Source: Sisyra terminalis
Lineage: Eukaryota; Arthropoda; Insecta; Neuroptera; Sisyridae
NCBI GenBank assembly: GCA_958496175.1
Contig: OY292278.1
Location: forward strand, 4,092,001 to 4,156,000
Direction of reading: 5' to 3'
DNA length: 64,000 nt
Part shown: piece after piece, positions 16,929-64,000 of the stretch
Layout of the letters: every line of letters starts with the position of its first letter
Numbering within the stretch: the stretch's first letter is position 1
The notes under the pieces: model-generated
Seen by the model: only the letters and a program-made list of their open reading frames with translations
Database searches by the model: none
What the model was told of the DNA's origin: nothing
Program-made: the position numbers and the translations under genes

Positions 16929-16940
16929 CTTTTTTTTAGT
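16929..16940 (+). repeat. Hybrid 187-bp junction, copy 1
   Basis: The monomer start reads AAC, eight T, AGTG. The C at position 3 is C-class, but the T-run length and AGTG are T-class, so the tract is one base longer than in either parent class. The same form occurs only at 42042 and 63621. It serves as the boundary marker of the super-units. Confidence 0.85.
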
Positions 16941-19719
16941 GATGCCAATCGAAAGTATAAGCCTTTATGTGCATGCTGTGCAAATTTTTCCCCAAACAAA
17001 CCACGTTTAAGGGATGAAAACGACCATCAAAATGCCAGAAGAAATCATTTTTCGTCATGAAAAAACCGTGGACTAACCATCGTTCATTTTTCACGAAATC
17101 GACAATTTTCATAAACTTTTTTTAATGATGCCAATCGAAAGTATAAGCCTTTATGTGCATGCTGTGCAAATTTTTTCCCAAACAAACCACGTTTAAGGGA
17201 TGAAAACGACCATCAAAGTGCCAGAAGAAATCATTTTTCGACATGAAAAAACCGTGGACTAACCATCGTTCATTTTTCACGAAATCGACAATTTTCATAA
17301 ATTTTTTTTAGTGATGCCAATCGAAAGTATAAGCCTTTATGTGCATGCTGTGCAAATTTTTCCCCAAACAAACCACGTTTAAGGGATGAAAACGACCATC
17401 AAAGTGCCAGAAGAAATCATTTTTCGACATGAAAAAACCGTGGACTAACCATCGTTCATTTTTCACGAAATCGACAATTATCATAAATTTTTTTTAGTGA
17501 TGCCAATCGAAAGTATAAGCCTTTATGTGCATGCTGTGCAAATTTTTCCCCAAACAAACCACGTTTAAGGGATGAAAACGACCATCAAAGTGCCAGAAGA
17601 AATCATTTTTCGACATGAAAAAACCGTGGACTAACCATCGTTCATTTTTCACGAAATCGACAATTTTCATAAATTTTTTTTAGTGATGCCAATCGAAAGT
17701 ATAAGCCTTTATGTGCATGCTGTGCAAATTTTTCCCCAAACAAACCACGTTTAAGGGATGAAAACGACCATCAAAGTGCCAGAAGAAATCATTTTTCGAC
17801 ATGAAAAAACCGTGGACTAACCATCGTTCATTTTTCACGAAATCGACAATTTTCATAAATTTTTTTTAGTGATGCCAATCGAAAGTATAAGCCTTTATGT
17901 GCATGCTGTGAAAATTTTTCCCCAAACAAACCACGTTTAAGGGATGAAAACGACCATCAAAGTGCCAGAAGAAATCATTTTTCGACATGAAAAAACCGTG
18001 GACTAACCATCGTTCATTTTTCACGAAATCGACAATTTTCATAAATTTTTTTTAGTGATGCCAATCGAAAGTATAAGCCTTTATGTGCATGCTGTGCAAA
18101 TTTTTCCCCAAACAAACCACGTTTAAGGGATGAAAACGACCATCAAAGTGCCAGAAGAAATCATTTTTCGTCATGAAAAAACCGTGGACTAACCATCGTT
18201 CATTTTTCACGAAATCGACAATTTTCATAAACTTTTTTTAATGATGCCAATCAAAAGTTTAAGCCATTATGTGCATGCTGTGCAAATTTTTCCCCAAACA
18301 AACCACGTTTAAGGGATGAAAACGACCATCAAAGTGCCAGAAGAAATCATTTTTCGTCATGAAAAAACCGTGGACTAACCATCGTTCATTTTTCACGAAA
18401 TCGACAATTTTCATAAACTTTTTTTAATGATGCCAATCGAAAGTATAAGCCTTTATGTGCATGCTGTGCAAATTTTTCCCCAAACAAACCACGTTTAAGG
18501 GATGAAAACGACCATCAAAATGCCAGAAGAAATCATTTTTCGTCATGAAAAAACCGTGGACTAACCATCGTTCATTTTTCACGAAATCGACAATTTTCAT
18601 AAACTTTTTTTAGTGATGCCAATCGAAAGTATAAGCCTTTATGTGCATGCTGTGCAAATTTTTACCCAAACAAACCACGTTTAAGGGATGAAAACGACCA
18701 TCAAAGTGCCAGAAGAAATCATTTTTCGACATGAAAAAACCGTGGACTAACCATCGTTCATTTTTCACGAAATCGACAATTTTCATAAATTTTTTTTAGT
18801 GATGCCAATCGAAAGTTTAAGCCTTTATGTGCATGCTGTGCAAATTTTTTCCCAAACAAACCACGTTTAAGGGATGAAAACGACCATCAAAGTGCCAGAA
18901 GAAATCATTTTTCGTCATGAAAAAACCGTGGACTAACCATCGTTCATTTTTCACGAAATCGACAATTTTCATAAATTTTTTTTAGTGATGCCAATCGAAA
19001 GTATAAGCCTTTATGTGCATGCTGTGCAAATTTTTCCCCAAACAAACCACGTTTAAGGGATGAAAACGACCATCAAAGTGCCAGAAGAAATCATTTTTCG
19101 TCATGAAAAAACCGTGGACTAACCATCGTTCATTTTTCACGAAATCGACAATTTTCATAAACTTTTTTTAATGATGCCAATCGAAAGTATAAGCCTTTAT
19201 GTGCATGCTGTGCAAATTTTTCCCCAAACAAACCACGTTTAAGGGATGAAAACGACCATCAAAGTGCCAGAAGAAATCATTTTTCGACATGAAAAAACCG
19301 TGGACTAACCATCGTTCATTTTTCACGAAATCGACAATTTTCATAAATTTTTTTTAGTGATGCCAATCGAAAGTATAAGCCTTTATGTGCATGCTGTGCA
19401 AATTTTTCCCCAAACAAACCACGTTTAAGGGATGAAAACGACCATCAAAGTGCCAGAAGAAATCATTTTTCGACATGAAAAAACCGTGGACTAACCATCG
19501 TTCATTTTTCACGAAATCGACAATTTTCATAAATTTTTTTTAGTGATGCCAATCGAAAGTATAAGCCTTTATGTGCATGCTGTGCAAATTTTTCCCCAAA
19601 CAAACCACGTTTAAGGGATGAAAACGACCATCAAAGTGCCAGAAGAAATCATTTTTCGACATGAAAAAACCGTGGACTAACCATCGTTCATTTTTCACGA
19701 AATCGACAATTTTCATAAA

Positions 19720-19729
19720 TTTTTTTAGT
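19720..19729 (+). repeat. 185-bp monomer with a shortened T-run
   Basis: Only seven T precede AGTG instead of eight. This is the only deletion variant I found. The single-base loss shifts frame and accidentally creates overlapping open frames on both strands here (up to 82 codons), which I do not regard as genes. The S2 counterpart lacks the deletion, because the S1-S2 offset changes by 1 bp across it. Confidence 0.85.
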
Positions 19730-21655: not shown

Positions 21656-23143
21656 CTTAAGGGATGAAAACGACCATCAAAGTGCCAAAAGAAATCATTT
21701 TTCGTCATGAAAAAACCGTGGACTAACCATCGTTCATTTTTCACGAAATCGACAATTTTCATAAACTTTTTTTAATGATGCCAATCGAAAGTATAAGCCT
21801 TTATGTGCATGCTGTGCAAATTTTTCCCCAAACAAACCACGTTTAAGGGATGAAAACGACCATCAAAGTGCCAGAAGAAATCATTTTTCGACATGAAAAA
21901 ACCGTGGACTAACCATCGTTCATTTTTCACGAAATCGACAATTTTCATAAATTTTTTTTAGTGATGCCAATCGAAAGTATAAGCCTTTATGTGCATGCTG
22001 TGCAAATTTTTCCCCAAACAAACCACGTTTAAGGGATGAAAACGACCATCAAAGTGCCAGAAGAAATCATTTTTCGACATGAAAAAACCGTGGACTAACC
22101 ATCGTTCATTTTTCACGAAATCGACAATTTTCATAAATTTTTTTTAGTGATGCCAATCGAAAGTTTAAGCCTTTATGTGCATGCTGTGCAAATTTTTTCC
22201 CAAACAAACCACGTTTAAGGGATGAAAACGACCATCAAAGTGCCAGAAGAAATCATTTTTCGACATGAAAAAACCGTGGACTAACCATCGTTCATTTTTC
22301 ACGAAATCGAAAATTTTCATAAATTTTTTTTAGTGATGCCAATCGAAAGTATAAGCCTTTATGTGCATGCTGTGCAAATTTTTCCCCAAACAAACCACGT
22401 TTAAGGGATGAAAACGACCATCAAAGTGCCAGAAGAAATCATTTTTCGTCATGAAAAAACCGTGGACTAACCATCGTTCATTTTTCACGAAATCGACAAT
22501 TTTCATAAACTTTTTTTAATGATGCCAATCGAAAGTATAAGCCTTTATGTGCATGCTGTGCAAATTTTTCCCCAAACAAACCACGTTTAAGGGATGAAAA
22601 CGACCATCAAAGTGCCAGAAGAAATCATTTTTCGTCATGAAAAAACCGTGGACTAACCATCGTTCATTTTTCACGAAATCGACAATTTTCATAAATTTTT
22701 TTTAGTGATGCCAATCGAAAGTATAAGCCTTTATGTGCATGCTGTGCAAATTTTTCCCCAAACAAACCACGTTTAAGGGATGAAAACGACCATCAAAGTG
22801 CCAGAAGAAATCATTTTTCGACATGAAAAAACCGTGGACTAACCATCGTTCATTTTTCACGAAATCGACAATTTTCATAAATTTTTTTTAGTGATGCCAA
22901 TCGAAAGTATAAGCCTTTATGTGCATGCTGTGCAAATTTTTCCCCAAACAAACCACGTTTAAGGGATGAAAACGACCATCAAAATGCCAGAAGAAATCAT
23001 TTTTCGTCATGAAAAAACCGTGGACTAACCATCGTTCATTTTTCACGAAATCGACAATTTTCATAAACTTTTTTTAATGATGCCAATCGAAAGTATAAGC
23101 CTTTATGTGCATGCTGTGCAAATTTTTTCCCAAACAAACCACG
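21656..23143 (+). repeat. 8-monomer block duplication in S1 (1,488 bp)
   Basis: This block is anchored on C79 at 21656 and 23144, exactly 8 x 186 bp apart. Both anchors are followed in the same monomer by A at position 111 (GTGCCAAAAG), a rare linked pair. Monomers with T at position 30 also recur at this spacing (about 20675 and 22163). S2 carries the same duplication. Confidence 0.75.
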
Positions 23144-25747
23144 CTTAAGGGATGAAAACGACCATCAAAGTGCCAAAAGAAATCATTTTTCGTCATGAAA
23201 AAACCGTGGACTAACCATCGTTCATTTTTCACGAAATCGACAATTTTCATAAACTTTTTTTAATGATGCCAATCGAAAGTATAAGCCTTTATGTGCATGC
23301 TGTGCAAATTTTTCCCCAAACAAACCACGTTTAAGGGATGAAAACGACCATCAAAGTGCCAGAAGAAATCATTTTTCGACATGAAAAAACCGTGGACTAA
23401 CCATCGTTCATTTTTCACGAAATCGACAATTTTCATAAATTTTTTTTAGTGATGCCAATCGAAAGTATAAGCCTTTATGTGCATGCTGTGCAAATTTTTC
23501 CCCAAACAAACCACGTTTAAGGGATGAAAACGACCATCAAAGTGCCAGAAGAAATCATTTTTCGTCATGAAAAAACCGTGGACTAACCATCGTTCATTTT
23601 TCACGAAATCGACAATTTTCATAAACTTTTTTTAATGATGCCAATCGAAAGTATAAGCCTTTATGTGCATGCTGTGCAAATTTTTCCCCAAACAAACCAC
23701 GTTTAAGGGATGAAAACGACCATCAAAGTGCCAGAAGAAATCATTTTTCGACATGAAAAAACCGTGGACTAACCATCGTTCATTTTTCACGAAATCGACA
23801 ATTTTCATAAATTTTTTTTAGTGATGCCAATCGAAAGTATAAGCCTTTATGTGCATGCTGTGAAAATTTTTCCCCAAACAAACCACGTTTAAGGGATGAA
23901 AACGACCATCAAAGTGCCAGAAGAAATCATTTTTCGACATGAAAAAACCGTGGACTAACCATCGTTCATTTTTCACGAAATCGACAATTTTCATAAATTT
24001 TTTTTAGTGATGCCAATCGAAAGTATAAGCCTTTATGTGCATGCTGTGCAAATTTTTCCCCAAACAAACCACGTTTAAGGGATGAAAACGACCATCAAAG
24101 TGCCAGAAGAAATCATTTTTCGTCATGAAAAAACCGTGGACTAACCATCGTTCATTTTTCACGAAATCGACAATTTTCATAAACTTTTTTTAATGATGCC
24201 AATCAAAAGTATAAGCCATTATGTGCATGCTGTGCAAATTTTTCCCCAAACAAACCACGTTTAAGGGATGAAAACGACCATCAAAGTGCCAGAAGAAATC
24301 ATTTTTCGTCATGAAAAAACCGTGGACTAACCATCGTTCATTTTTCACGAAATCGACAATTTTCATAAACTTTTTTTAATGATGCCAATCGAAAGTATAA
24401 GCCTTTATGTGCATGCTGTGCAAATTTTTCCCCAAACAAACCACGTTTAAGGGATGAAAACGACCATCAAAGTGCCAGAAGAAATCATTTTTCGACATGA
24501 AAAAACCGTGGACTAACCATCGTTCATTTTTCACGAAATCGACAATTTTCATAAATTTTTTTTAGTGATGCCAATCGAAAGTATAAGCCTTTATGTGCAT
24601 GCTGTGCAAATTTTTCCCCAAACAAACCACGTTTAAGGGATGAAAACGACCATCAAAGTGCCAGAAGAAATCATTTTTCGACATGAAAAAACCGTGGACT
24701 AACCATCGTTCATTTTTCACGAAATCGACAATTTTCATAAATTTTTTTTAGTGATGCCAATCGAAAGTTTAAGCCTTTATGTGCATGCTGTGCAAATTTT
24801 TTCCCAAACAAACCACGTTTAAGGGATGAAAACGACCATCAAAGTGCCAGAAGAAATCATTTTTCGACATGAAAAAACCGTGGACTAACCATCGTTCATT
24901 TTTCACGAAATCGAAAATTTTCATAAATTTTTTTTAGTGATGCCAATCGAAAGTATAAGCCTTTATGTGCATGCTGTGCAAATTTTTCCCCAAACAAACC
25001 ACGTTTAAGGGATGAAAACGACCATCAAAGTGCCAGAAGAAATCATTTTTCGTCATGAAAAAACCGTGGACTAACCATCGTTCATTTTTCACGAAATCGA
25101 CAATTTTCATAAACTTTTTTTAATGATGCCAATCGAAAGTATAAGCCTTTATGTGCATGCTGTGCAAATTTTTCCCCAAACAAACCACGTTTAAGGGATG
25201 AAAACGACCATCAAAGTGCCAGAAGAAATCATTTTTCGTCATGAAAAAACCGTGGACTAACCATCGTTCATTTTTCACGAAATCGACAATTTTCATAAAT
25301 TTTTTTTAGTGATGCCAATCGAAAGTATAAGCCTTTATGTGCATGCTGTGCAAATTTTTCCCCAAACAAACCACGTTTAAGGGATGAAAACGACCATCAA
25401 AGTGCCAGAAGAAATCATTTTTCGACATGAAAAAACCGTGGACTAACCATCGTTCATTTTTCACGAAATCGACAATTTTCATAAATTTTTTTTAGTGATG
25501 CCAATCGAAAGTATAAGCCTTTATGTGCATGCTGTGCAAATTTTTCCCCAAACAAACCACGTTTAAGGGATGAAAACGACCATCAAAATGCCAGAAGAAA
25601 TCATTTTTCGTCATGAAAAAACCGTGGACTAACCATCGTTCATTTTTCACGAAATCGACAATTTTCATAAACTTTTTTTAATGATGCCAATCGAAAGTAT
25701 AAGCCTTTATGTGCATGCTGTGCAAATTTTTTCCCAAACAAACCACG
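23144..25747 (+). repeat. 14-monomer block in S1 (2,604 bp)
   Basis: This block is anchored on the linked C79/A111 pair at 23144 and 25748, exactly 14 x 186 bp apart. The T30 monomers at about 22163 and 24768 show the same 14-monomer spacing. S2 has the 8-monomer duplication but not this one, and the loss of 14 monomers equals the change in S1-S2 offset from 26,230 to 23,625 (2,604 bp plus the 1-bp insertion near 21210). Confidence 0.75.
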
Positions 25748-28700
25748 CTTAAGGGATGAAAACGACCATCAAAGTGCCAAAAGAAATCATTTTTCGTCAT
25801 GAAAAAACCGTGGACTAACCATCGTTCATTTTTCACGAAATCGACAATTTTCATAAACTTTTTTTAATGATGCCAATCGAAAGTATAAGCCTTTATGTGC
25901 ATGCTGTGCAAATTTTTCCCCAAACAAACCACGTTTAAGGGATGAAAACGACCATCAAAGTGCCAGAAGAAATCATTTTTCGACATGAAAAAACCGTGGA
26001 CTAACCATCGTTCATTTTTCACGAAATCGACAATTTTCATAAATTTTTTTTAGTGATGCCAATCGAAAGTATAAGCCTTTATGTGCATGCTGTGCAAATT
26101 TTTCCCCAAACAAACCACGTTTAAGGGATGAAAACGACCATCAAAGTGCCAGAAGAAATCATTTTTCGTCATGAAAAAACCGTGGACTAACCATCGTTCA
26201 TTTTTCACGAAATCGACAATTTTCATAAACTTTTTTTAATGATGCCAATCGAAAGTATAAGCCTTTATGTGCATGCTGTGCAAATTTTTCCCCAAACAAA
26301 CCACGTTTAAGGGATGAAAACGACCATCAAAGTGCCAGAAGAAATCATTTTTCGACATGAAAAAACCGTGGACTAACCATCGTTCATTTTTCACGAAATC
26401 GACAATTTTCATAAATTTTTTTTAGTGATGCCAATCGAAAGTATAAGCCTTTATGTGCATGCTGTGAAAATTTTTCCCCAAACAAACCACGTTTAAGGGA
26501 TGAAAACGACCATCAAAGTGCCAGAAGAAATCATTTTTCGACATGAAAAAACCGTGGACTAACCATCGTTCATTTTTCACGAAATCGACAATTTTCATAA
26601 ATTTTTTTTAGTGATGCCAATCGAAAGTATAAGCCTTTATGTGCATGCTGTGCAAATTTTTCCCCAAACAAACCACGTTTAAGGGATGAAAACGACCATC
26701 AAAGTGCCAGAAGAAATCATTTTTCGTCATGAAAAAACCGTGGACTAACCATCGTTCATTTTTCACGAAATCGACAATTTTCATAAACTTTTTTTAATGA
26801 TGCCAATCAAAAGTATAAGCCATTATGTGCATGCTGTGCAAATTTTTCCCCAAACAAACCACGTTTAAGGGATGAAAACGACCATCAAAGTGCCAGAAGA
26901 AATCATTTTTCGTCATGAAAAAACCGTGGACTAACCATCGTTCATTTTTCACGAAATCGACAATTTTCATAAACTTTTTTTAATGATGCCAATCGAAAGT
27001 ATAAGCCTTTATGTGCATGCTGTGCAAATTTTTCCCCAAACAAACCACGTTTAAGGGATGAAAACGACCATCAAAGTGCCAGAAGAAATCATTTTTCGTC
27101 ATGAAAAAACCGTGGACTAACCATCGTTCATTTTTCACGAAATCGACAATTTTCATAAACTTTTTTTAATGATGCCAATCAAAAGTATAAGCCATTATGT
27201 GCATGCTGTGCAAATTTTTCCACAAACAAACCACGTTTAAGGGATGAAAACGACCATCAAAGTGCCAGAAGAAATCATTTTTCGTCATGAAAAAACCGTG
27301 GACTAACCATCGTTCATTTTTCACGAAATCGACAATTTTCATAAACTTTTTTTAATGATGCCAATCGAAAGTATAAGCCTTTATGTGCATGCTGTGCAAA
27401 TTTTTCCCCAAACAAACCACGTTTAAGGGATGAAAACGACCATCAAAGTGCCAGAAGAAATCATTTTTCGTCATGAAAAAACCGTGGACTAACCATCGTT
27501 CATTTTTCACGAAATCGACAATTTTCATAAACTTTTTTTAATGATGCCAATCAAAAGTATAAGCCATTATGTGCATGCTGTGCAAATTTTTCCCCAAACA
27601 AACCACGTTTAAGGGATGAAAACGACCATCAAAGTGCCAGAAGAAATCATTTTTCGTCATGAAAAAACCGTGGACTAACCATCGTTCATTTTTCACGAAA
27701 TCGACAATTTTCATAAACTTTTTTTAATGATGCCAATCGAAAGTATAAGCCTTTATGTGCATGCTGTGCAAATTTTTCCCCAAACAAACCACGTTTAAGG
27801 GATGAAAACGACCATCAAAGTGCCAGAAGAAATCATTTTTCGACATGAAAAAACCGTGGACTAACCATCGTTCATTTTTCACGAAATCGACAATTTTCAT
27901 AAATTTTTTTTAGTGATGCCAATCGAAAGTATAAGCCTTTATGTGCATGCTGTGCAAATTTTTCCCCAAACAAACCACGTTTAAGGGATGAAAACGACCA
28001 TCAAAGTGCCAGAAGAAATCATTTTTCGTCATGAAAAAACCGTGGACTAACCATCGTTCATTTTTCACGAAATCGACAATTTTCATAAACTTTTTTTAAT
28101 GATGCCAATCGAAAGTATAAGCCTTTATGTGCATGCTGTGCAAATTTTTCCCCAAACAAACCACGTTTAAGGGATGAAAACGACCATCAAAGTGCCAGAA
28201 GAAATCATTTTTCGTCATGAAAAAACCGTGGACTAACCATCGTTCATTTTTCACGAAATCGACAATTTTCATAAATTTTTTTTAGTGATGCCAATCGAAA
28301 GTATAAGCCTTTATGTGCATGCTGTGCAAATTTTTCCCCAAACAAACCACGTTTAAGGGATGAAAACGACCATCAAAGTGCCAGAAGAAATCATTTTTCG
28401 ACATGAAAAAACCGTGGACTAACCATCGTTCATTTTTCACGAAATCGACAATTTTCATAAATTTTTTTTAGTGATGCCAATCGAAAGTATAAGCCTTTAT
28501 GTGCATGCTGTGCAAATTTTTCCCCAAACAAACCACGTTTTAGGGATGAAAACGACCATCAAAGTGCCAGAAGAAATCATTTTTCGACATGAAAAAACCG
28601 TGGACTAACCATCGTTCATTTTTCACGAAATCGACAATTTTCATAAATTTTTTTTAGTGATGCCAATCGAAAGTATAAGCCTTTATGTGCATGCTGTGCA

Positions 28701-31065: not shown

Positions 31066-31077
31066 TTTTTTTTAAGT
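31066..31077 (+). repeat. 187-bp monomer with an extra A after the T-run, copy 1
   Basis: Eight T are followed by AAGTG instead of AGTG. Identical forms occur at 34787, 54691 and 55808. This one and 34787 delimit the 20-monomer block in S1. Confidence 0.85.
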
Positions 31078-38150: not shown

Positions 38151-38360
38151 CCAATCGAAAGTATAAGCATTTATGTGCATGCTGTGCAAATTTTTCCCCA
38201 AACAAACCACGTTTAAGGGATGAAAACGACCATCAAAGTGCCAGAAGAAATCATTTTTCGACATGAAAAAACCGTGGACTAACCATCGTTCATTTTTCAC
38301 GAAATCGACAATTTTCATAAATTTTTTTTAGTGATGCCAATCGAAAGTATAAGCCTTTAT

Positions 38361-47884: not shown

Positions 47885-49372
47885 CTTAAGGGATGAAAAC
47901 GACCATCAAAGTGCCAAAAGAAATCATTTTTCGTCATGAAAAAACCGTGGACTAACCATCGTTCATTTTTCACGAAATCGACAATTTTCATAAACTTTTT
48001 TTAATGATGCCAATCGAAAGTATAAGCCTTTATGTGCATGCTGTGCAAATTTTTCCCCAAACAAACCACGTTTAAGGGATGAAAACGACCATCAAAGTGC
48101 CAGAAGAAATCATTTTTCGACATGAAAAAACCGTGGACTAACCATCGTTCATTTTTCACGAAATCGACAATTTTCATAAATTTTTTTTAGTGATGCCAAT
48201 CGAAAGTATAAGCCTTTATGTGCATGCTGTGCAAATTTTTCCCCAAACAAACCACGTTTAAGGGATGAAAACGACCATCAAAGTGCCAGAAGAAATCATT
48301 TTTCGACATGAAAAAACCGTGGACTAACCATCGTTCATTTTTCACGAAATCGACAATTTTCATAAATTTTTTTTAGTGATGCCAATCGAAAGTTTAAGCC
48401 TTTATGTGCATGCTGTGCAAATTTTTTCCCAAACAAACCACGTTTAAGGGATGAAAACGACCATCAAAGTGCCAGAAGAAATCATTTTTCGACATGAAAA
48501 AACCGTGGACTAACCATCGTTCATTTTTCACGAAATCGAAAATTTTCATAAATTTTTTTTAGTGATGCCAATCGAAAGTATAAGCCTTTATGTGCATGCT
48601 GTGCAAATTTTTCCCCAAACAAACCACGTTTAAGGGATGAAAACGACCATCAAAGTGCCAGAAGAAATCATTTTTCGTCATGAAAAAACCGTGGACTAAC
48701 CATCGTTCATTTTTCACGAAATCGACAATTTTCATAAACTTTTTTTAATGATGCCAATCGAAAGTATAAGCCTTTATGTGCATGCTGTGCAAATTTTTCC
48801 CCAAACAAACCACGTTTAAGGGATGAAAACGACCATCAAAGTGCCAGAAGAAATCATTTTTCGTCATGAAAAAACCGTGGACTAACCATCGTTCATTTTT
48901 CACGAAATCGACAATTTTCATAAATTTTTTTTAGTGATGCCAATCGAAAGTATAAGCCTTTATGTGCATGCTGTGCAAATTTTTCCCCAAACAAACCACG
49001 TTTAAGGGATGAAAACGACCATCAAAGTGCCAGAAGAAATCATTTTTCGACATGAAAAAACCGTGGACTAACCATCGTTCATTTTTCACGAAATCGACAA
49101 TTTTCATAAATTTTTTTTAGTGATGCCAATCGAAAGTATAAGCCTTTATGTGCATGCTGTGCAAATTTTTCCCCAAACAAACCACGTTTAAGGGATGAAA
49201 ACGACCATCAAAATGCCAGAAGAAATCATTTTTCGTCATGAAAAAACCGTGGACTAACCATCGTTCATTTTTCACGAAATCGACAATTTTCATAAACTTT
49301 TTTTAATGATGCCAATCGAAAGTATAAGCCTTTATGTGCATGCTGTGCAAATTTTTTCCCAAACAAACCACG
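47885..49372 (+). repeat. 8-monomer block duplication in S2 (1,488 bp)
   Basis: This is the S2 counterpart of the block at 21656-23143: C79 with linked A111 occurs at 47885 and 49373, 1,488 bp apart. T30 monomers near 46905 and 48393 share the spacing. Because S1 and S2 both have the 8-monomer duplication, it predates the duplication of the super-unit. Confidence 0.75.
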
Positions 49373-52300
49373 CTTAAGGGATGAAAACGACCATCAAAGT
49401 GCCAAAAGAAATCATTTTTCGTCATGAAAAAACCGTGGACTAACCATCGTTCATTTTTCACGAAATCGACAATTTTCATAAACTTTTTTTAATGATGCCA
49501 ATCGAAAGTATAAGCCTTTATGTGCATGCTGTGCAAATTTTTCCCCAAACAAACCACGTTTAAGGGATGAAAACGACCATCAAAGTGCCAGAAGAAATCA
49601 TTTTTCGACATGAAAAAACCGTGGACTAACCATCGTTCATTTTTCACGAAATCGACAATTTTCATAAATTTTTTTTAGTGATGCCAATCGAAAGTATAAG
49701 CCTTTATGTGCATGCTGTGCAAATTTTTCCCCAAACAAACCACGTTTAAGGGATGAAAACGACCATCAAAGTGCCAGAAGAAATCATTTTTCGTCATGAA
49801 AAAACCGTGGACTAACCATCGTTCATTTTTCACGAAATCGACAATTTTCATAAACTTTTTTTAATGATGCCAATCGAAAGTATAAGCCTTTATGTGCATG
49901 CTGTGCAAATTTTTCCCCAAACAAACCACGTTTAAGGGATGAAAACGACCATCAAAGTGCCAGAAGAAATCATTTTTCGACATGAAAAAACCGTGGACTA
50001 ACCATCGTTCATTTTTCACGAAATCGACAATTTTCATAAATTTTTTTTAGTGATGCCAATCGAAAGTATAAGCCTTTATGTGCATGCTGTGAAAATTTTT
50101 CCCCAAACAAACCACGTTTAAGGGATGAAAACGACCATCAAAGTGCCAGAAGAAATCATTTTTCGACATGAAAAAACCGTGGACTAACCATCGTTCATTT
50201 TTCACGAAATCGACAATTTTCATAAATTTTTTTTAGTGATGCCAATCGAAAGTATAAGCCTTTATGTGCATGCTGTGCAAATTTTTCCCCAAACAAACCA
50301 CGTTTAAGGGATGAAAACGACCATCAAAGTGCCAGAAGAAATCATTTTTCGTCATGAAAAAACCGTGGACTAACCATCGTTCATTTTTCACGAAATCGAC
50401 AATTTTCATAAACTTTTTTTAATGATGCCAATCAAAAGTATAAGCCATTATGTGCATGCTGTGCAAATTTTTCCCCAAACAAACCACGTTTAAGGGATGA
50501 AAACGACCATCAAAGTGCCAGAAGAAATCATTTTTCGTCATGAAAAAACCGTGGACTAACCATCGTTCATTTTTCACGAAATCGACAATTTTCATAAACT
50601 TTTTTTAATGATGCCAATCGAAAGTATAAGCCTTTATGTGCATGCTGTGCAAATTTTTCCCCAAACAAACCACGTTTAAGGGATGAAAACGACCATCAAA
50701 GTGCCAGAAGAAATCATTTTTCGTCATGAAAAAACCGTGGACTAACCATCGTTCATTTTTCACGAAATCGACAATTTTCATAAACTTTTTTTAATGATGC
50801 CAATCAAAAGTATAAGCCATTATGTGCATGCTGTGCAAATTTTTCCACAAACAAACCACGTTTAAGGGATGAAAACGACCATCAAAGTGCCAGAAGAAAT
50901 CATTTTTCGTCATGAAAAAACCGTGGACTAACCATCGTTCATTTTTCACGAAATCGACAATTTTCATAAACTTTTTTTAATGATGCCAATCGAAAGTATA
51001 AGCCTTTATGTGCATGCTGTGCAAATTTTTCCCCAAACAAACCACGTTTAAGGGATGAAAACGACCATCAAAGTGCCAGAAGAAATCATTTTTCGTCATG
51101 AAAAAACCGTGGACTAACCATCGTTCATTTTTCACGAAATCGACAATTTTCATAAACTTTTTTTAATGATGCCAATCAAAAGTATAAGCCATTATGTGCA
51201 TGCTGTGCAAATTTTTCCCCAAACAAACCACGTTTAAGGGATGAAAACGACCATCAAAGTGCCAGAAGAAATCATTTTTCGTCATGAAAAAACCGTGGAC
51301 TAACCATCGTTCATTTTTCACGAAATCGACAATTTTCATAAACTTTTTTTAATGATGCCAATCGAAAGTATAAGCCTTTATGTGCATGCTGTGCAAATTT
51401 TTCCCCAAACAAACCACGTTTAAGGGATGAAAACGACCATCAAAGTGCCAGAAGAAATCATTTTTCGACATGAAAAAACCGTGGACTAACCATCGTTCAT
51501 TTTTCACGAAATCGACAATTTTCATAAATTTTTTTTAGTGATGCCAATCGAAAGTATAAGCCTTTATGTGCATGCTGTGCAAATTTTTCCCCAAACAAAC
51601 CACGTTTAAGGGATGAAAACGACCATCAAAGTGCCAGAAGAAATCATTTTTCGTCATGAAAAAACCGTGGACTAACCATCGTTCATTTTTCACGAAATCG
51701 ACAATTTTCATAAACTTTTTTTAATGATGCCAATCGAAAGTATAAGCCTTTATGTGCATGCTGTGCAAATTTTTCCCCAAACAAACCACGTTTAAGGGAT
51801 GAAAACGACCATCAAAGTGCCAGAAGAAATCATTTTTCGTCATGAAAAAACCGTGGACTAACCATCGTTCATTTTTCACGAAATCGACAATTTTCATAAA
51901 TTTTTTTTAGTGATGCCAATCGAAAGTATAAGCCTTTATGTGCATGCTGTGCAAATTTTTCCCCAAACAAACCACGTTTAAGGGATGAAAACGACCATCA
52001 AAGTGCCAGAAGAAATCATTTTTCGACATGAAAAAACCGTGGACTAACCATCGTTCATTTTTCACGAAATCGACAATTTTCATAAATTTTTTTTAGTGAT
52101 GCCAATCGAAAGTATAAGCCTTTATGTGCATGCTGTGCAAATTTTTCCCCAAACAAACCACGTTTTAGGGATGAAAACGACCATCAAAGTGCCAGAAGAA
52201 ATCATTTTTCGACATGAAAAAACCGTGGACTAACCATCGTTCATTTTTCACGAAATCGACAATTTTCATAAATTTTTTTTAGTGATGCCAATCGAAAGTA

Positions 52301-54690
52301 TAAGCCTTTATGTGCATGCTGTGCAAATTTTTCCCCAAACAAACCACGTTTAAGGGATGAAAACGACCATCAAAGTGCCAGAAGAAATCATTTTTCGTCA
52401 TGAAAAAACCGTGGACTAACCATCGTTCATTTTTCACGAAATCGACAATTTTCATAAACTTTTTTTAATGATGCCAATCAAAAGTATAAGCCATTATGTG
52501 CATGCTGTGCAAATTTTTCCCCAAACAAACCACGTTTAAGGGATGAAAACGACCATCAAAGTGCCAGAAGAAATCATTTTTCGTCATGAAAAAACCGTGG
52601 ACTAACCATCGTTCATTTTTCACGAAATCGACAATTTTCATAAACTTTTTTTAATGATGCCAATCGAAAGTATAAGCCTTTATGTGCATGCTGTGCAAAT
52701 TTTTCCCCAAACAAACCACGTTTAAGGGATGAAAACGACCATCAAAATGCCAGAAGAAATCATTTTTCGTCATGAAAAAACCGTGGACTAACCATCGTTC
52801 ATTTTTCACGAAATCGACAATTTTCATAAATTTTTTTTAGTGATGCCAATCGAAAGTTTAAGCCTTTATGTGCATGCTGTGCAAATTTTTTCCCAAACAA
52901 ACCACGTTTAAGGGATGAAAACGACCATCAAAGTGCCAGAAGAAATCATTTTTCGACATGAAAAAACCGTGGACTAACCATCGTTCATTTTTCACGAAAT
53001 CGAAAATTTTCATAAATTTTTTTTAGTGATGCCAATCGAAAGTATAAGCCTTTATGTGCATGCTGTGCAAATTTTTCCCCAAACAAACCACGTTTAAGGG
53101 ATGAAAACGACCATCAAAGTGCCAGAAGAAATCATTTTTCGTCATGAAAAAACCGTGGACTAACCATCGTTCATTTTTCACGAAATCGACAATTTTCATA
53201 AACTTTTTTTAATGATGCCAATCGAAAGTATAAGCCTTTATGTGCATGCTGTGCAAATTTTTCCCCAAACAAACCACGTTTAAGGGATGAAAACGACCAT
53301 CAAAGTGCCAGAAGAAATCATTTTTCGTCATGAAAAAACCGTGGACTAACCATCGTAAATTTTTCACGAAATCGACAATTTTCATAAATTTTTTTTAGTG
53401 ATGCCAATCGAAAGTATAAGCCTTTATGTGCATGCTGTGCAAATTTTTCCCCAAACAAACCACGTTTAAGGGATGAAAACGACCATCAAAGTGCCAGAAG
53501 AAATCATTTTTCGTCATGAAAAAACCATGGACTAACCATCGTTCATTTTTCACGAAATCGACAATTTTCATAAACTTTTTTTAATGATGCCAATCAAAAG
53601 TATAAGCCATTATGTGCATGCTGTGCAAATTTTTCCCCAAACAAACCACGTTTAAGGGATGAAAACGACCATCAAAGTGCCAGAAGAAATCATTTTTCGT
53701 CATGAAAAAACCGTGGACTAACCATCGTTCATTTTTCACGAAATCGACAATTTTCATAAACTTTTTTTAATGATGCCAATCGAAAGTATAAGCCTTTATG
53801 TGCATGCTGTGCAAATTTTTCCCCAAACAAACCACGTTTAAGGGATGAAAACGACCATCAAAATGCCAGAAGAAATCATTTTTCGTCATGAAAAAACCGT
53901 GGACTAACCATCGTTCATTTTTCACGAAATCGACAATTTTCATAAACTTTTTTTAATGATGCCAATCGAAAGTATAAGCCTTTATGTGCATGCTGTGCAA
54001 ATTTTTTCCCAAACAAACCACGTTTAAGGGATGAAAACGACCATCAAAGTGCCAGAAGAAATCATTTTTCGTCATGAAAAAACCGTGGACTAACCATCGT
54101 TCATTTTTCACGAAATCGACAATTTTCATAAACTTTTTTTAATGATGCCAATCGAAAGTATAAGCCTTTATGTGCATGCTGTGCAAATTTTTCCCCAAAC
54201 AAACCACGTTTAAGGGATGAAAACGACCATCAAAATGCCAGAAGAAATCATTTTTCGACATGAAAAAACCGTGGACTAACCATCGTTCATTTTTCACGAA
54301 ATCGACAATTTTCATAAATTTTTTTTAGTGATGCCAATCGAAAGTATAAGCCTTTATGTGCATGCTGTGCAAATTTTTCCCCAAACAAACCACGTTTAAG
54401 GGATGAAAACGACCATCAAAGTGCCAGAAGAAATCATTTTTCGACATGAAAAAACCGTGGACTAACCATCGTTCATTTTTCACGAAATCGACAATTTTCA
54501 TAAATTTTTTTTAGTGATGCCAATCGAAAGTTTAAGCCTTTATGTGCATGCTGTGCAAATTTTTTCCCAAACAAACCACGTTTAAGGGATGAAAACGACC
54601 ATCAAAGTGCCAGAAGAAATCATTTTTCGACATGAAAAAACCGTGGACTAACCATCGTTCATTTTTCACGAAATCGAAAATTTTCATAAA

Positions 54691-54702
54691 TTTTTTTTAA
54701 GT
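54691..54702 (+). repeat. 187-bp monomer with an extra A after the T-run, copy 3
   Basis: Same form as at 31066, at the S1-S2 offset of 23,625 bp, so it was inherited with the super-unit rather than arising again. Confidence 0.85.
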
Positions 54703-55819
54703 GATGCCAATCGAAAGTATAAGCCTTTATGTGCATGCTGTGCAAATTTTTCCCCAAACAAACCACGTTTAAGGGATGAAAACGACCATCAAAGTGCCAG
54801 AAGAAATCATTTTTCGTCATGAAAAAACCGTGGACTAACCATCGTTCATTTTTCACGAAATCGACAATTTTCATAAATTTTTTTTAGTGATGCCAATCGA
54901 AAGTATAAGCCTTTATGTGCATGCTGTGCAAATTTTTCCCCAAACAAACCACGTTTAAGGGATGAAAACGACCATCAAAGTGCCAGAAGAAATCATTTTT
55001 CGTCATGAAAAAACCGTGGACTAACCATCGTTCATTTTTCACGAAATCGACAATTTTCATAAACTTTTTTTAATGATGCCAATCAAAAGTATAAGCCATT
55101 ATGTGCATGCTGTGCAAATTTTTCCCCAAACAAACCACGTTTAAGGGATGAAAACGACCATCAAAGTGCCAGAAGAAATCATTTTTCGTCATGAAAAAAC
55201 CGTGGACTAACCATCGTTCATTTTTCACGAAATCGACAATTTTCATAAACTTTTTTTAATGATGCCAATCGAAAGTATAAGCCTTTATGTGCATGCTGTG
55301 CAAATTTTTTCCCAAACAAACCACGTTTAAGGGATGAAAACGACCATCAAAGTGCCAGAAGAAATCATTTTTCGTCATGAAAAAACCGTGGACTAACCAT
55401 CGTTCATTTTTCACGAAATCGACAATTTTCATAAACTTTTTTTAATGATGCCAATCGAAAGTATAAGCCTTTATGTGCATGCTGTGCAAATTTTTCCCCA
55501 AACAAACCACGTTTAAGGGATGAAAACGACCATCAAAGTGCCAGAAGAAATCATTTTTCGACATGAAAAAACCGTGGACTAACCATCGTTCATTTTTCAC
55601 GAAATCGACAATTTTCATAAACTTTTTTTAATGATGCCAATCGAAAGTATAAGCCTTTATGTGCATGCTGTGCAAATTTTTCCCCAAACAAACCACGTTT
55701 AAGGGATGAAAACGACCATCAAAATGCCAGAAGAAATCATTTTTCGTCATGAAAAAACCGTGGACTAACCATCGTTCATTTTTCACGAAATCGAAAATTT
55801 TCATAAATTTTTTTTAAGT
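54703..55819 (+). repeat. Contracted counterpart of the 20-monomer block (6 monomers + 1 bp)
   Basis: In S2 the two TTAAGTG insertion monomers are only 1,117 bp apart (GATGCC at 54703 and 55820), against 3,721 bp in S1. The left one matches S1 at the prevailing offset of 23,625. The right one fits S1 34799 at 21,021, and the offset becomes 21,207 by 57926. About 14 monomers are missing and one (the A24/A37 type) is added. This fits unequal exchange within the block. Confidence 0.7.
55808..55819 (+). repeat. 187-bp monomer with an extra A after the T-run, copy 4
   Basis: Same form, 1,117 bp after copy 3. It is preceded by A105 near 55724, unlike the monomer before copy 2, which has G105 and T30. 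The join to its left is therefore different from S1, as expected if a deletion breakpoint lies just upstream. Confidence 0.8.
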
Positions 55820-58800
55820 GATGCCAATCGAAAGTATAAGCCTTTATGTGCATGCTGTGCAAATTTTTCCCCAAACAAACCACGTTTAAGGGATGAAAAC
55901 GACCATCAAAGTGCCAGAAGAAATCATTTTTCGTCATGAAAAAACCGTGGACTAACCATCGTTCATTTTTCACGAAATCGACAATTTTCATAAATTTTTT
56001 TTAGTGATGCCAATCGAAAGTATAAGCCTTTATGTGCATGCTGTGCAAATTTTTCCCCAAACAAACCACGTTTAAGGGATGAAAACGACCATCAAAGTGC
56101 CAGAAGAAATCATTTTTCGTCATGAAAAAACCGTGGACTAACCATCGTTCATTTTTCACGAAATCGACAATTTTCATAAACTTTTTTTAATGATGCCAAT
56201 CAAAAGTATAAGCCATTATGTGCATGCTGTGCAAATTTTTCCCCAAACAAACCACGTTTAAGGGATGAAAACGACCATCAAAGTGCCAGAAGAAATCATT
56301 TTTCGTCATGAAAAAACCGTGGACTAACCATCGTTCATTTTTCACGAAATCGACAATTTTCATAAACTTTTTTTAATGATGCCAATCGAAAGTATAAGCC
56401 TTTATGTGCATGCTGTGCAAATTTTTTCCCAAACAAACCACGTTTAAGGGATGAAAACGACCATCAAAGTGCCAGAAGAAATCATTTTTCGTCATGAAAA
56501 AACCGTGGACTAACCATCGTTCATTTTTCACGAAATCGACAATTTTCATAAACTTTTTTTAATGATGCCAATCGAAAGTATAAGCCTTTATGTGCATGCT
56601 GTGCAAATTTTTCCCCAAACAAACCACGTTTAAGGGATGAAAACGACCATCAAAGTGCCAGAAGAAATCATTTTTCGACATGAAAAAACCGTGGACTAAC
56701 CATCGTTCATTTTTCACGAAATCGACAATTTTCATAAACTTTTTTTAATGATGCCAATCGAAAGTATAAGCCTTTATGTGCATGCTGTGCAAATTTTTCC
56801 CCAAACAAACCACGTTTAAGGGATGAAAACGACCATCAAAATGCCAGAAGAAATCATTTTTCGTCATGAAAAAACCGTGGACTAACCATCGTTCATTTTT
56901 CACGAAATCGACAATTTTCATAAACTTTTTTTAATGATGCCAATCGAAAGTATAAGCCTTTATGTGCATGCTGTGCAAATTTTTTCCCAAACAAACCACG
57001 TTTAAGGGATGAAAACGACCATCAAAGTGCCAGAAGAAATCATTTTTCGTCATGAAAAAACCGTGGACTAACCATCGTTCATTTTTCACGAAATCGACAA
57101 TTTTCATAAACTTTTTTTAATGATGCCAATCGAAAGTATAAGCCTTTATGTGCATGCTGTGCAAATTTTTCCCCAAACAAACCACGTTTAAGGGATGAAA
57201 ACGACCATCAAAGTGCCAGAAGAAATCATTTTTCGACATGAAAAAACCGTGGACTAACCATCGTTCATTTTTCACGAAATCGACAATTTTCATAAATTTT
57301 TTTTAGTGATGCCAATCGAAAGTATAAGCCTTTATGTGCATGCTGTGCAAATTTTTCCCCAAACAAACCACGTTTAAGGGATGAAAACGACCATCAAAGT
57401 GCCAGAAGAAATCATTTTTCGACATGAAAAAACCGTGGACTAACCATCGTTCATTTTTCACGAAATCGACAATTTTCATAAATTTTTTTTAGTGATGCCA
57501 ATCGAAAGTATAAGCCTTTATGTGCATGCTGTGCAAATTTTTCCCCAAACAAACCACGTTTAAGGGATGAAAACGACCATCAAAGTGCCAGAAGAAATCA
57601 TTTTTCGACATGAAAAAACCGTGGACTAACCATCGTTCATTTTTCACGAAATCGACAATTTTCATAAATTTTTTTTAGTGATGCCAATCGAAAGTTTAAG
57701 CCTTTATGTGCATGCTGTGCAAATTTTTTCCCAAACAAACCACGTTTAAGGGATGAAAACGACCATCAAAGTGCCAGAAGAAATCATTTTTCGACATGAA
57801 AAAACCGTGGACTAACCATCGTTCATTTTTCACGAAATCGAAAATTTTCATAAATTTTTTTTAGTGATGCCAATCGAAAGTATAAGCCTTTATGTGCATG
57901 CTGTGCAAATTTTTCCCCAAACAAATCACGTTTAAGGGATGAAAACGACCATCAAAGTGCCAGAAGAAATCATTTTTCGTCATGAAAAAACCGTGGACTA
58001 ACCATCGTTCATTTTTCACGAAATCGACAATTTTCATAAATTTTTTTTAGTGATGCCAATCGAAAGTATAAGCCTTTATGTGCATGCTGTGCAAATTTTT
58101 CCCCAAACAAACCACGTTTAAGGGATGAAAACGACCATCAAAGTGCCAGAAGAAATCATTTTTCGACATGAAAAAACCGTGGACTAACCATCGTTCATTT
58201 TTCACGAAATCGACAATTTTCATAAATTTTTTTTAGTGATGCCAATCGAAAGTATAAGCCTTTATGTGCATGCTGTGCAAATTTTTCCCCAAACAAACCA
58301 CGTTTAAGGGATGAAAACGACCATCAAAGTGCCAGAAGAAATCATTTTTCGACATGAAAAAACCGTGGACTAACCATCGTTCATTTTTCACGAAATCGAC
58401 AATTTTCATAAATTTTTTTTAGTGATGCCCATCGAAAGTATAAGCCTTTATGTGCATGCTGTGCAAATTTTTCCCCAAACAAACCACGTTTAAGGGATGA
58501 AAACGACCATCAAAGTGCCAGAAGAAATCATTTTTCGACATGAAAAAACCGTGGACTAACCATCGTTCATTTTTCACGAAATCGACAATTTTCATAAATT
58601 TTTTTTAGTGATGCCAATCGAAAGTATAAGCCTTTATGTGCATGCTGTGCAAATTTTTCCCCAAACAAACCACGTTTAAGGGATGAAAACGACCATCAAA
58701 GTGCCAGAAGAAATCATTTTTCGACATGAAAAAACCGTGGACTAACCATCGTTCATTTTTCACGAAATCGACAATTTTCATAAATTTTTTTTAGTGATGC

Positions 58801-61299
58801 CAATCGAAAGTATAAGCATTTATGTGCATGCTGTGCAAATTTTTCCCCAAACAAACCACGTTTAAGGGATGAAAACGACCATCAAAGTGCCAGAAGAAAT
58901 CATTTTTCGTCATGAAAAAACCGTGGACTAACCATCGTTCATTTTTCACGAAATCGACAATTTTCATAAATTTTTTTTAGTGATGCCAATCGAAAGTATA
59001 AGCCTTTATGTGCATGCTGTGCAAATTTTTCCCCAAACAAACCACGTTTAAGGGATGAAAACGACCATCAAAGTGCCAGAAGAAATCATTTTTCGTCATG
59101 AAAAAACCGTGGACTAACCATCGTTCATTTTTCACGAAATCGACAATTTTCATAAATTTTTTTTAGTGATGCCAATCGAAAGTATAAGCCTTTATGTGCA
59201 TGCTGTGCAAATTTTTCCCCAAACAAACCACGTTTAAGGGATGAAAACGACCATCAAAGTGCCAGAAGAAATCATTTTTCGTCATGAAAAAACCGTGGAC
59301 TAACCATCGTTCATTTTTCACGAAATCGACAATTTTCATAAATTTTTTTTAGTGATGCCAATCGAAAGTATAAGCATTTATGTGCATGCTGTGCAAATTT
59401 TTCCCCAAACAAACCACGTTTAAGGGATGAAAACGACCATCAAAGTGCCAGAAGAAATCATTTTTCGACATGAAAAAACCGTGGACTAACCATCGTTCAT
59501 TTTTCACGAAATCGACAATTTTCATAAATTTTTTTTAGTGATGCCAATCGAAAGTATAAGCCTTTATGAGCATGCTGTGCAAATTTTTTCCCAAACAAAC
59601 CACGTTTAAGGGATGAAAACGACCATCAAAGTGCCAGAAGAAATCATTTTTCGACATGAAAAAACCGTGGACTAACCATCGTTCATTTTTCACGAAATCG
59701 ACAATTTTCATAAATTTTTTTTAGTGATGCCAATCGAAAGTATAAGCCTTTATGTGCATGCTGTGCAAATTTTTCCCCAAACAAACCACGTTTAAGGGAT
59801 GAAAACGACCATCAAAGTGCCAGAAGAAATCATTTTTCGACATGAAAAAACCGTGGACTAACCATCGTTCATTTTTCACGAAATCGACAATTTTCATAAA
59901 TTTTTTTTAGTGATGATAATCGAAAGTATAAGCCTTTATGTGCATGCTGTGCAAATTTTTCCCCAAACAAACCACGTTTAAGGGATGAAAACGACCATCA
60001 AAGTGCCAGAAGAAATCATTTTTCGACATGAAAAAACCGTGGACTAACCATCGTTCATTTTTCACGAAATCGACAATTTTCATAAATTTTTTTTAGTGAT
60101 GCCAATCGAAAGTATAAGCCTTTATGTGCATGCTGTGCAAATTTTTCCCCAAACAAACCACGTTTAAGGGATGAAAACGACCATCAAAGTGCCAGAAGAA
60201 ATCATTTTTCGTCATGAAAAAACCGTGGACTAACCATCGTTCATTTTTCACGAAATCGACAATTTTCATAAATTTTTTTTAGTGATGCCAATCGAAAGTA
60301 TAAGCATTTATGTGCATGCTGTGCAAATTTTTCCCCAAACAAACCACGTTTAAGGGATGAAAACGACCATCAAAGTGCCAGAAGAAATCATTTTTCGACA
60401 TGAAAAAACCGTGGACTAACCATCGTTCATTTTTCACGAAATCGACAATTTTCATAAATTTTTTTTAGTGATGCCAATCGAAAGTATAAGCATTTATGTG
60501 CATGCTGTGCAAATTTTTCCCCAAACAAACCACGTTTAAGGGATGAAAACGACCATCAAAGTGCCAGAAGAAATCATTTTTCGACATGAAAAAACCGTGG
60601 ACTAACCATCGTTCATTTTTCACGAAATCGACAATTTTCATAAATTTTTTTTAGTGATGCCAATCGAAAGTATAAGCCTTTATGAGCATGCTGTGCAAAT
60701 TTTTTCCCAAACAAACCACGTTTAAGGGATGAAAACGACCATCAAAGTGCCAGAAGAAATCATTTTTCGACATGAAAAAACCGTGGACTAACCATCGTTC
60801 ATTTTTCACGAAATCGACAATTTTCATAAATTTTTTTTAGTGATGCCAATCGAAAGTATAAGCCTTTATGTGCATGCTGTGCAAATTTTTCCCCAAACAA
60901 ACCACGTTTAAGGGATGAAAACGACCATCAAAGTGCCAGAAGAAATCATTTTTCGACATGAAAAAACCGTGGACTAACCATCGTTCATTTTTCACGAAAT
61001 CGACAATTTTCATAAATTTTTTTTAGTGATGCCAATCGAAAGTATAAGCATTTATGTGCATGCTGTGCAAATTTTTCCCCAAACAAACCACGTTTAAGGG
61101 ATGAAAACGACCATCAAAGTGCCAGAAGAAATCATTTTTCGACATGAAAAAACCGTGGACTAACCATCGTTCATTTTTCACGAAATCGACAATTTTCATA
61201 AATTTTTTTTAGTGATGCCAATCGAAAGTATAAGCCTTTATGAGCATGCTGTGCAAATTTTTTCCCAAACAAACCACGTTTAAGGGATGAAAACGACCA

Positions 61300-63632
61300 T
61301 CAAAGTGCCAGAAGAAATCATTTTTCGACATGAAAAAACCGTGGACTAACCATCGTTCATTTTTCACGAAATCGACAATTTTCATAAATTTTTTTTAGTG
61401 ATGCCAATCGAAAGTATAAGCCTTTATGTGCATGCTGTGCAAATTTTTCCCCAAACAAACGACGTTTAAGGGATGAAAACGACCATCAAAGTGCCAGAAG
61501 AAATCATTTTTCGACATGAAAAAACCGTGGACTAACCATCGTTCATTTTTCACGAAATCGACAATTTTCATAAATTTTTTTTAGTGATGCCAATCGAAAG
61601 TATAAGCCTTTATGTGCATGCTGTGCAAATTTTTTCCCAAACAAACCACGTTTAAGGGATGAAAACGACCATCAAAGTGCCAGAAGAAATCATTTTTCGT
61701 CATGAAAAAACCGTGGACTAACCATCGTTCATTTTTCACGAAATCGACAATTTTCATAAACTTTTTTTAATGATGCCAATCAAAAGTATAAGCCATTATG
61801 TGCATGCTGTGCAAATTTTTCCCCAAACAAACCACGTTTAAGGGATGAAAACGACCATCAAAGTGCCAGAAGAAATCATTTTTCGTCATGAAAAAACCGT
61901 GGACTAACCATCGTTCATTTTTCACGAAATCGACAAGTTTCATAAACTTTTTTTAATGATGCCAATCGAAAGTATAAGCCTTTATGTGCATGCTGTGCAA
62001 ATTTTTCCCCAAACAAACCACGTTTAAGGGATGAAAACGACCATCAAAATGCCAGAAGAAATCATTTTTCGTCATGAAAAAACCGTGGACTAACCATCGT
62101 TCATTTTTCACGAAATCGACAATTTTCATAAACTTTTTTTAATGATGCCAATCGAAAGTATAAGCCTTTATGTGCATGCTGTGCAAATTTTTTCCCAAAC
62201 AAACCACGTTTAAGGGATGAAAACGACCATCAAAGTGCCAGAAGAAATCATTTTTCGACATGAAAAAACCGTGGACTAACCATCGTTCATTTTTCACGAA
62301 ATCGACAATTTTCATAAATTTTTTTTAGTGATGCCAATCGAAAGTTTAAGCCTTTATGTGCATGCTGTGCAAATTTTTTCCCAAACAAACCACGTTTAAG
62401 GGATGAAAACGACCATCAAAGTGCCAGAAGAAATCATTTTTCGACATGAAAAAACCGTGGACTAACCATCGTTCATTTTTCACGAAATCGAAAATTTTCA
62501 TAAATTTTTTTTAGTGATGCCAATCGAAAGTATAAGCCTTTATGTGCATGCTGTGCAAATTTTTCCCCAAACAAACCACGTTTAAGGGATGAAAACGACC
62601 ATCAAAGTGCCAGAAGAAATCATTTTTCGTCATGAAAAAACCGTGGACTAACCATCGTTCATTTTTCACGAAATCGACAATTTTCATAAACTTTTTTTAA
62701 TGATGCCAATCGAAAGTATAAGCCTTTATGTGCATGCTGTGCAAATTTTTCCCCAAACAAACCACGTTTAAGGGATGAAAACGACCATCAAAGTGCCAGA
62801 AGAAATCATTTTTCGTCATGAAAAAACCGTGGACTAACCATCGTTCATTTTTCACGAAATCGACAATTTTCATAAATTTTTTTTAGTGATGCCAATCGAA
62901 AGTATAAGCCTTTATGTGCATGCTGTGCAAATTTTTCCCCAAACAAACCACGTTAAAGGGATGAAAACGACCATCAAAGTGCCAGAAGAAATCATTTTTC
63001 GACATGAAAAAACCGTGGACTAACCATCGTTCATTTTTCACGAAATCGACAATTTTCATAAATTTTTTTTAGTGATGCCAATCGAAAGTATAAGCCTTTA
63101 TGTGCATGCTGTGCAAATTTTTCCCCAAACAAACCACGTTTAAGGGATGAAAACGACCATCAAAATGCCAGAAGAAATCATTTTTCGTCATGAAAAAACC
63201 GTGGACTAACCATCGTTCATTTTTCACGAAATCGAAAATTTTCATAAACTTTTTTTAATGATGCCAATCGAAAGTATAAGCCTTTATGTGCATGCTGTGC
63301 AAATTTTTTCCCAAACAAACCACGCTTAAGGGATGAAAACGACCATCAAAGTGCCAGAAGAAATCATTTTTCGTCATGAAAAAACCGTGGACTAACCATC
63401 GTTCATTTTTCACGAAATCGACAATTTTCATAAACTTTTTTTAATGATGCCAATCGAAAGTATAAGCCTTTATGTGCATGCTGTGCAAATTTTTCCCCAA
63501 ACAAACCACGTTTAAGGGATGAAAACGACCATCAAAATGCCAGAAGAAATCATTTTTCGTCATGAAAAAACCGTGGACTAACCATCGTTCATTTTTCACG
63601 AAATCGACAATTTTCATAAACTTTTTTTTAGT
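61300..63632 (+). repeat. Segment of the 5.2-kb HOR reused inside S2
   Basis: This is the same tail block as at 39.7-42.05 kb, offset by 21,579 bp: G75 at 61461, G179 at 61937, and the hybrid junction ending at 63633. It retains T at monomer position 30 near 62346, as HOR units 2 and 3 do. Its presence at the end of both super-units shows that the big unit was assembled from S-type monomers joined to a fixed piece of the smaller HOR. The left edge is approximate. Confidence 0.75.
63621..63632 (+). repeat. Hybrid 187-bp junction, copy 3
   Basis: AAC, eight T, AGTG as at 16929 and 42042, 21,579 bp after the second. It ends super-unit S2. Confidence 0.85.
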
Positions 63633-64000
63633 GATGCCAATCGAAAGTATAAGCCTTTATGTGCATGCTGTGCAAATTTTTCCCCAAACAAACCACGTTT
63701 AAGGGATGAAAACGACCATCAAAATGCCAGAAGAAATCATTTTTCGTCATGAAAAAACCGTGGACTAACCATCGTTCATTTTTCACGAAATCGACAATTT
63801 TCATAAACTTTTTTTAATGATGCCAATCGAAAGTATAAGCCTTTATGTGCATGCTGTGCAAATTTTTTCCCAAACAAACCACGCTTAAGGGATGAAAACG
63901 ACCATCAAAGTGCCAGAAGAAATCATTTTTCGTCATGAAAAAACCGTGGACTAACCATCGTTCATTTTTCACGAAATCGACAATTTTCATAAACTTTTTT
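63633..64000 (+). repeat. Start of super-unit S3 (partial)
   Basis: After the third hybrid junction the sequence repeats the start of S2 at a constant offset of 21,579 bp, including the C79 marker (63884 versus 42305). The window ends 9 bp into the 345th monomer, within the T-run, so the array clearly continues to the right. Confidence 0.75.

Follow-up and report, generated by a model that had tools for sequence, protein, structure and literature searches.

A block above 20 kb occurs as two near-identical tandem copies in a 186-bp satellite array

The window analysed in this study, a stretch of 64,000 nt of contig OY292278.1, consists throughout of a satellite array of 186-bp monomers, which probably represents centromeric or pericentromeric heterochromatin of a eukaryote. 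Within this array a large block is present twice in tandem, and a third copy begins before the window ends. We consider it likely that the array turns over in blocks and that the copies result from one large and recent tandem duplication by out-of-register recombination. This is ordinary satellite DNA behaviour at an unusually large step and a new instance of block duplication. The array, the large units and the region to their left are located as follows:

1 to 64000, forward strand: satellite array of 186-bp monomers arranged head-to-tail, in which no insertion or inverted monomer was seen (anchor spacings, monomer typing)
74 to 14581, forward strand: left block, another array neighbourhood with a 28-29-monomer repeat (monomer strings)
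14582 to 39694, forward strand: large unit, copy 1, 135 monomers (shared tract from 14572; alignment to copy 2)
39695 to 61273, forward strand: large unit, copy 2, 116 monomers (monomer-string alignment, markers)
61274 to 64000, forward strand: start of the third copy, of which 2.7 kb lie within the window (exact matches)

A total of 344 anchors (matched with at most 3 mismatches) was detected on the forward strand of the whole window and none on the other strand. The 343 spacings between them were 186 bp in 334 cases, 187 bp in eight cases and 185 bp in one case. The window thus shows the long head-to-tail run of monomers of about 150-200 bp by which a satellite DNA array is defined. Its 343 complete monomers belong to 52 sequence types, designated here by single letters. 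The commonest is type A, which equals the consensus monomer (86 copies), and 19 of the 52 types are singletons.

The two large copies share not only their types of monomers but also the order of these. Eighteen types are common to both units and absent from the left 14.5 kb, and ten types (U, V, Z, a, b, c, d, e, f and g) occur once per unit in the same order. Other types are specific to one unit, namely n, o, p, q and r to copy 1 and s, t, u, v, w, x, y and z to copy 2. The original prediction, in which a repeated unit of 25.1 and 21.6 kb was proposed, named at least eleven further markers following the same order; given these counts, which include the marker V, this was a fair statement. The offsets between first occurrences in both units were 25113, 25299, 26230/26229, 23625, 23811, 24928 and 21207 bp. 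As predicted, they change in steps of whole monomers, with a departure of one base wherever a monomer of 185 or 187 bp lies in between. An exception is type M (offset 28089), which has several copies per unit, so that the first copies are not counterparts.

Alignment of copy 1 to copy 2 with five gap settings placed 90-106 monomers opposite each other, 82-94 of them identical. Over the aligned monomers only 10-17 base differences were found, corresponding to 99.91-99.95% identity, and the copies are separated by 6-10 block indels, depending on the gap setting. These five settings replaced an over-gapped first setting (69 monomers aligned, 65 identical); a closing gap of two monomers between the copies follows from the unit lengths. 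Local alignment of one monomer string to the other scored 269, whereas 100 shuffles of copy 2 scored no more than 18.5. For the whole window, the collinearity score at lags of at least 80 monomers was 309, compared to at most 19.1 in 100 shuffles. The two large copies of the same unit are therefore real at the predicted sizes.

The prediction was based on three 187-bp monomers of a hybrid type, here called V, which are located as follows:

16814 to 17000, forward strand: monomer V, 187-bp hybrid, first occurrence, an internal marker (monomer typing)
41927 to 42113, forward strand: monomer V, 187-bp hybrid, second occurrence (monomer typing)
63506 to 63692, forward strand: monomer V, 187-bp hybrid, third occurrence (monomer typing)

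The sequence AACTTTTTTTTAGTG (AAC-T8-AGTG), which characterizes V, was found exactly three times in the window, at 16927, 42040 and 63619, and the spacings from V to V are 25,113 and 21,579 bp, i.e. 135 and 116 monomers. The hybrid nature of V was confirmed, too. Its left half resembles type D (G32A, A55T and a C before the T run), its right half resembles types A and C, being without G125A and C176T, and it carries one extra base at the T run. Its supposed role as the junction bounding the copies did not hold: V is a rare monomer inside the unit, and the identity around its first and third occurrence runs 2,242 bp further to the left. Because this exact identity reaches 14572, the shared unit starts about 2.3 kb to the left of the start originally proposed.

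The region from 14572 to 17191 at the start of copy 1 equals 61264 to 63883 at the start of the third copy exactly (2,620 bp). Near 14572 the sequence switches from the types of the left block to those of the unit; nine types (h, P, T, i, j, k, l, Y and m) occur only in the left block. The markers J and O, confined to the units, lie directly left of the unit starts at 39695 and 61274. Together with the start of the shared tract, their position sets the limits of the units to 14582-39694, 39695-61273 and 61274 onward. Over its final 700 bp (63301-64000), the window matches 41722-42421 of copy 2 exactly. Furthermore, the third copy has an H-like monomer (T6C) after V-D, which copy 2 has as well and copy 1 lacks.

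The left block has a repeat structure of its own, comprising about three irregular copies of 28-29 monomers (5.2-5.4 kb). Its marker T is located at 2306, 7514 and 12908, with spacings of 5208 and 5394 bp, and 18 consecutive monomers are identical at 5654 and 11048. The last copy of this repeat (ALEQDFGBC-KH) leads directly into the large unit, which accordingly begins with a piece of the smaller 28-29-monomer repeat.

Smaller duplications were detected within the copies:

21689 to 27098, forward strand: perfect tandem duplication of 14 monomers (2,604 bp), copy 1 only (exact 2,806-bp match at distance 2,604; single in copy 2)
30634 to 38168, forward strand: perfect tandem duplication of 20 monomers (3,721 bp), copy 1 only (exact 3,814-bp match at distance 3,721)
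54576 to 56809, forward strand: six-monomer near-duplication WCERBI / yCERBI with a spacing of 1,117 bp, copy 2 only (monomer string, alignment)

The offset between the markers of both copies falls by 2,604 bp (14 monomers) at one place and by 3,721 bp (20 monomers) at another. Since the two perfect tandem duplications are present in copy 1 only, they account for much of the difference in length; copy 2 also has a few extra monomers missing from copy 1. The perfect identity within both duplications favours a recent gain in copy 1 over a loss in copy 2. At the joint of the 20-monomer duplication, the monomer at 34300-34485 (type C) is an exact hybrid of the right flank S and the left flank f, with an exchange between monomer positions 55 and 148.

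The original prediction also described a hierarchy of 186-bp monomers, regular blocks of 8-20 monomers and a unit above 20 kb. The monomer and the copies of more than 20 kb were found, whereas the regular middle level was not. Instead of such a layer, there are the separate 14-, 20- and six-monomer duplications and the repeat of the left block, and no single intermediate period between monomer and large unit was seen in the monomer-string alignments of the window.

These observations are best explained by an array in which blocks of whole monomers, from a few to more than 100, are gained by tandem duplication and lost by deletion. In one large step, some 116-135 monomers (21.6-25.1 kb) were probably copied in tandem by out-of-register homologous recombination, i.e. 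unequal sister exchange or break-induced replication. Afterwards the copies would have diverged by about 10-17 base changes as well as by several smaller block duplications and losses. The kept monomer phase and the whole-monomer offsets fit what homologous out-of-register exchange predicts, and the perfect 14- and 20-monomer duplications in copy 1 appear to be the same kind of event at smaller scale. An in-register unequal exchange is expected to produce a hybrid monomer where the flanks meet. The mean difference is 2.83 bases between adjacent monomers and 3.09 bases between random pairs; adjacent monomers are thus hardly more alike than random ones, which suggests block-wise turnover. The sequence does not separate unequal sister exchange from break-induced replication. 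Both processes are described for satellite arrays in excerpts of PMC8997354 and PMC11034957, and the models presented there predict nested, in-register block duplications as seen here. They are general models, break-induced replication having been tested in human cells, and in these excerpts they have no specific link to this array; a structure of this kind was already to be expected from them.

We compared the observed collinearity with that arising in a neutral simulation in which tandem duplications, deletions and mutations occur (200 windows per setting, of which only those with 40-64 types were kept). With log-uniform step lengths of up to 300 monomers, 47 of 148 simulated windows reached at least the observed value of 309, and with steps of up to 150 monomers this applied to 27 of 124. 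None of 143 windows did so with steps of up to 50 monomers, none of 140 with geometric steps of mean 10 and one of 117 with mean 20. The model therefore requires steps well above 50 monomers, but no special second-level mechanism. This result bears on the question whether long-tract processes, e.g. break-induced replication, shape satellite arrays. The window can be regarded as a readable record of satellite growth: a duplication exceeding 20 kb and two or more perfect ones of smaller size have all preserved the monomer register.

For an estimate of age we used a plant-like rate of 7e-9 mutations per site and generation, which may not be that of the host. The divergence of 0.05-0.09% would then correspond, as an order of magnitude, to some 40,000-60,000 generations, a value that gene conversion would shift.

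Several points weigh against the proposed duplication by out-of-register recombination. The hybrid at the joint of the 20-monomer duplication gives only modest support, as 4.0% of 20,000 random triples fit such a hybrid, too, and at the 14-monomer duplication the junction monomers equal the flanking ones, which makes the test uninformative there. The simulation is a simple one, with no back mutation, equal duplication and deletion and a fixed array size. Its first version used an order-blind marker count, which was rejected in favour of the order-sensitive score (mean 14.6 and maximum 21 in 200 shuffles, compared to 22 in the real window). Moreover, simple unequal crossover fails to explain the spread of new higher-order repeats (HORs) in human according to an excerpt of PMC11062924. 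Finally, the tandem copies might have an assembly cause, as judged from the sequence.

In this last case, two haplotypes of a heterozygous locus, or two paths of the assembly graph, would have been set in tandem via the 2.6-kb stretch ALEQDFGBCUKHVD. Two alleles would also show 99.91-99.95% identity with whole-monomer indels, and the stretch concerned is exactly identical at 14572-17191 and 61264-63883. A single path used repeatedly would however yield identical copies, not copies with 10-17 base differences and 6-10 block indels. As the stretch is present three times, the haplotype model still needs it twice per haplotype, and reads much longer than 2.6 kb would span the suspect joints. We regard an assembly artefact as improbable. 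Likewise, we think it unlikely that the block is a true second-level super-HOR, i.e. a unit of 116-135 monomers (21-25 kb) iterated many times and serving as the working amplification unit of the array. The third copy starting at 61274, which follows copy 2 after V, is in line with this idea and extends the series to at least 2.1 units. Within the window there are only two full copies, however, they differ by 19 monomers, so that the period is irregular, and the left flank up to 14.5 kb does not consist of the large unit. If it were a true super-HOR, the amplified blocks would be about twice as large in monomers as the 58-mer of the orangutan Y. A likeness of the copies by chance or convergence might be suspected with few (52 types) and similar monomers, but the shuffles described above refute it, leaving this explanation with hardly any probability.

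A unit of more than 20 kb had been predicted as a second-level super-repeat; of this, the two full copies and the start of a third one stood, whereas a regularly iterated HOR level is not established by the window. The unit has no constant canonical length (135 and 116 monomers). In a HOR of the Willard type each monomer type occurs once per unit, but types A, B, C and D recur many times per unit here. Near-identical iteration amounts to the two full copies and the begun third within the window. We did not file the block as a super-HOR, since two copies of unequal length plus a stub are too few to demonstrate regularity. What the window shows is a single large tandem duplication, perhaps the first of a series, alongside duplications of various lengths.

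The predicted size above that of typical satellite HORs was correct when counted in monomers, as far as alpha-satellite HORs are described in the excerpts available. These are the 58-mer superHOR on the orangutan Y with 0.25% divergence (PMC12428378, giving 310 copies in the main text and 67 in the abstract), a 59-mer on orangutan chromosome 13 and a 34-mer on the human Y (PMC8997354). According to these descriptions, the units found here resemble the orangutan Y 58-mer in the nucleosome-like monomer length, the large units, the repetition of types within a unit, the row-wise indels and the sub-percent divergence. Unlike that repeat, which has many copies and a canonical length, they comprise 116-135 monomers in two unequal full copies and a stub. 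The 178-bp repeat of Arabidopsis has a similar monomer length, but is set apart, by description only, by HORs of mostly 2 or 3 monomers (excerpt of PMC12321929). Populus arrays of 156 and 148 bp likewise consist of tandem monomers of similar, although not equal, length, a likeness taken from the description in an excerpt of PMC12046899 and not from the sequences. In the 156-bp arrays, most monomers share one strand and become less similar with increasing distance, according to the same excerpt.

An exact 25-base probe had no match in viral or genome contig collections and 373 bases of the array had none in a plasmid collection; all of these are mostly prokaryotic or viral and say little on eukaryotes. 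The centromeric satellite of sparid fishes such as sea bream is an EcoRI satellite, unlike the present array, since the EcoRI site GAATTC occurs 0 times in the 64,000 bases. A 186-bp satellite is named in the sea bream Sparus aurata (PMC12008808) and the VicTR-B repeat of Vicia grandiflora is a 186-bp HOR of five monomers (PMC2543021), both according to excerpts. What these have in common with the array is the length of 186 bp, the likeness being judged by description and not by sequence. An internal repeat of about 38 bp, as in VicTR-B, was not detected in the consensus monomer (identity 0.263, 0.296 and 0.280 at lags 37-39, mean 0.268). The excerpted literature contained no described 186-bp satellite identifying this array, and the other mention of 186 bp concerned nucleosome spacing. 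Three 17-base fragments of the array and their reverse complements had no match in literature text, and a term search of the literature for super-repeat, super-HOR or nested higher-order repeats yielded no paper on these. A coding potential was rejected, as all six frames of the consensus contain at least one stop per monomer; the longest open frame (reverse strand, 61 residues) gave no candidate in a protein search. For the CENP-B box, a motif of some lineages only, the consensus monomer gave no good match, the best one covering 6 of the 9 fixed positions.

The array has an A+T content of 64.8%, and AA/TT steps in the consensus recur with a period of 10.95 bp. Phasing of this strength (9.5-11.5 bp) was reached by none of 300 dinucleotide-preserving shuffles. 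The period equals 186/17, exactly 17 per monomer, and the phase therefore carries over from monomer to monomer. This is as expected of nucleosome-positioning or curved satellite DNA, and the length of the monomer may be adjusted to the helical repeat.

Variation is common at eleven sites of the monomer (6, 32, 55, 103, 116, 125, 137, 143, 149, 150 and 176). All four allele combinations were found for 25 of the 55 pairs of these sites, so that each monomer seems to be a mosaic of others. Covariation is almost complete between sites 116 and 125 (4 exceptions in 343 monomers) and complete between sites 137 and 150. Site 55 is split 172:171 and shows all four combinations with each of the sites 116, 125, 137 and 150. 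All nine of the 343 monomers with a length other than 186 bp (at 16814, 19605, 21092, 30951, 34672, 41927, 54576, 55693 and 63506) have their length change in or adjoining the T8 run at monomer positions 115-125, which is the hot spot of length change in the monomer.

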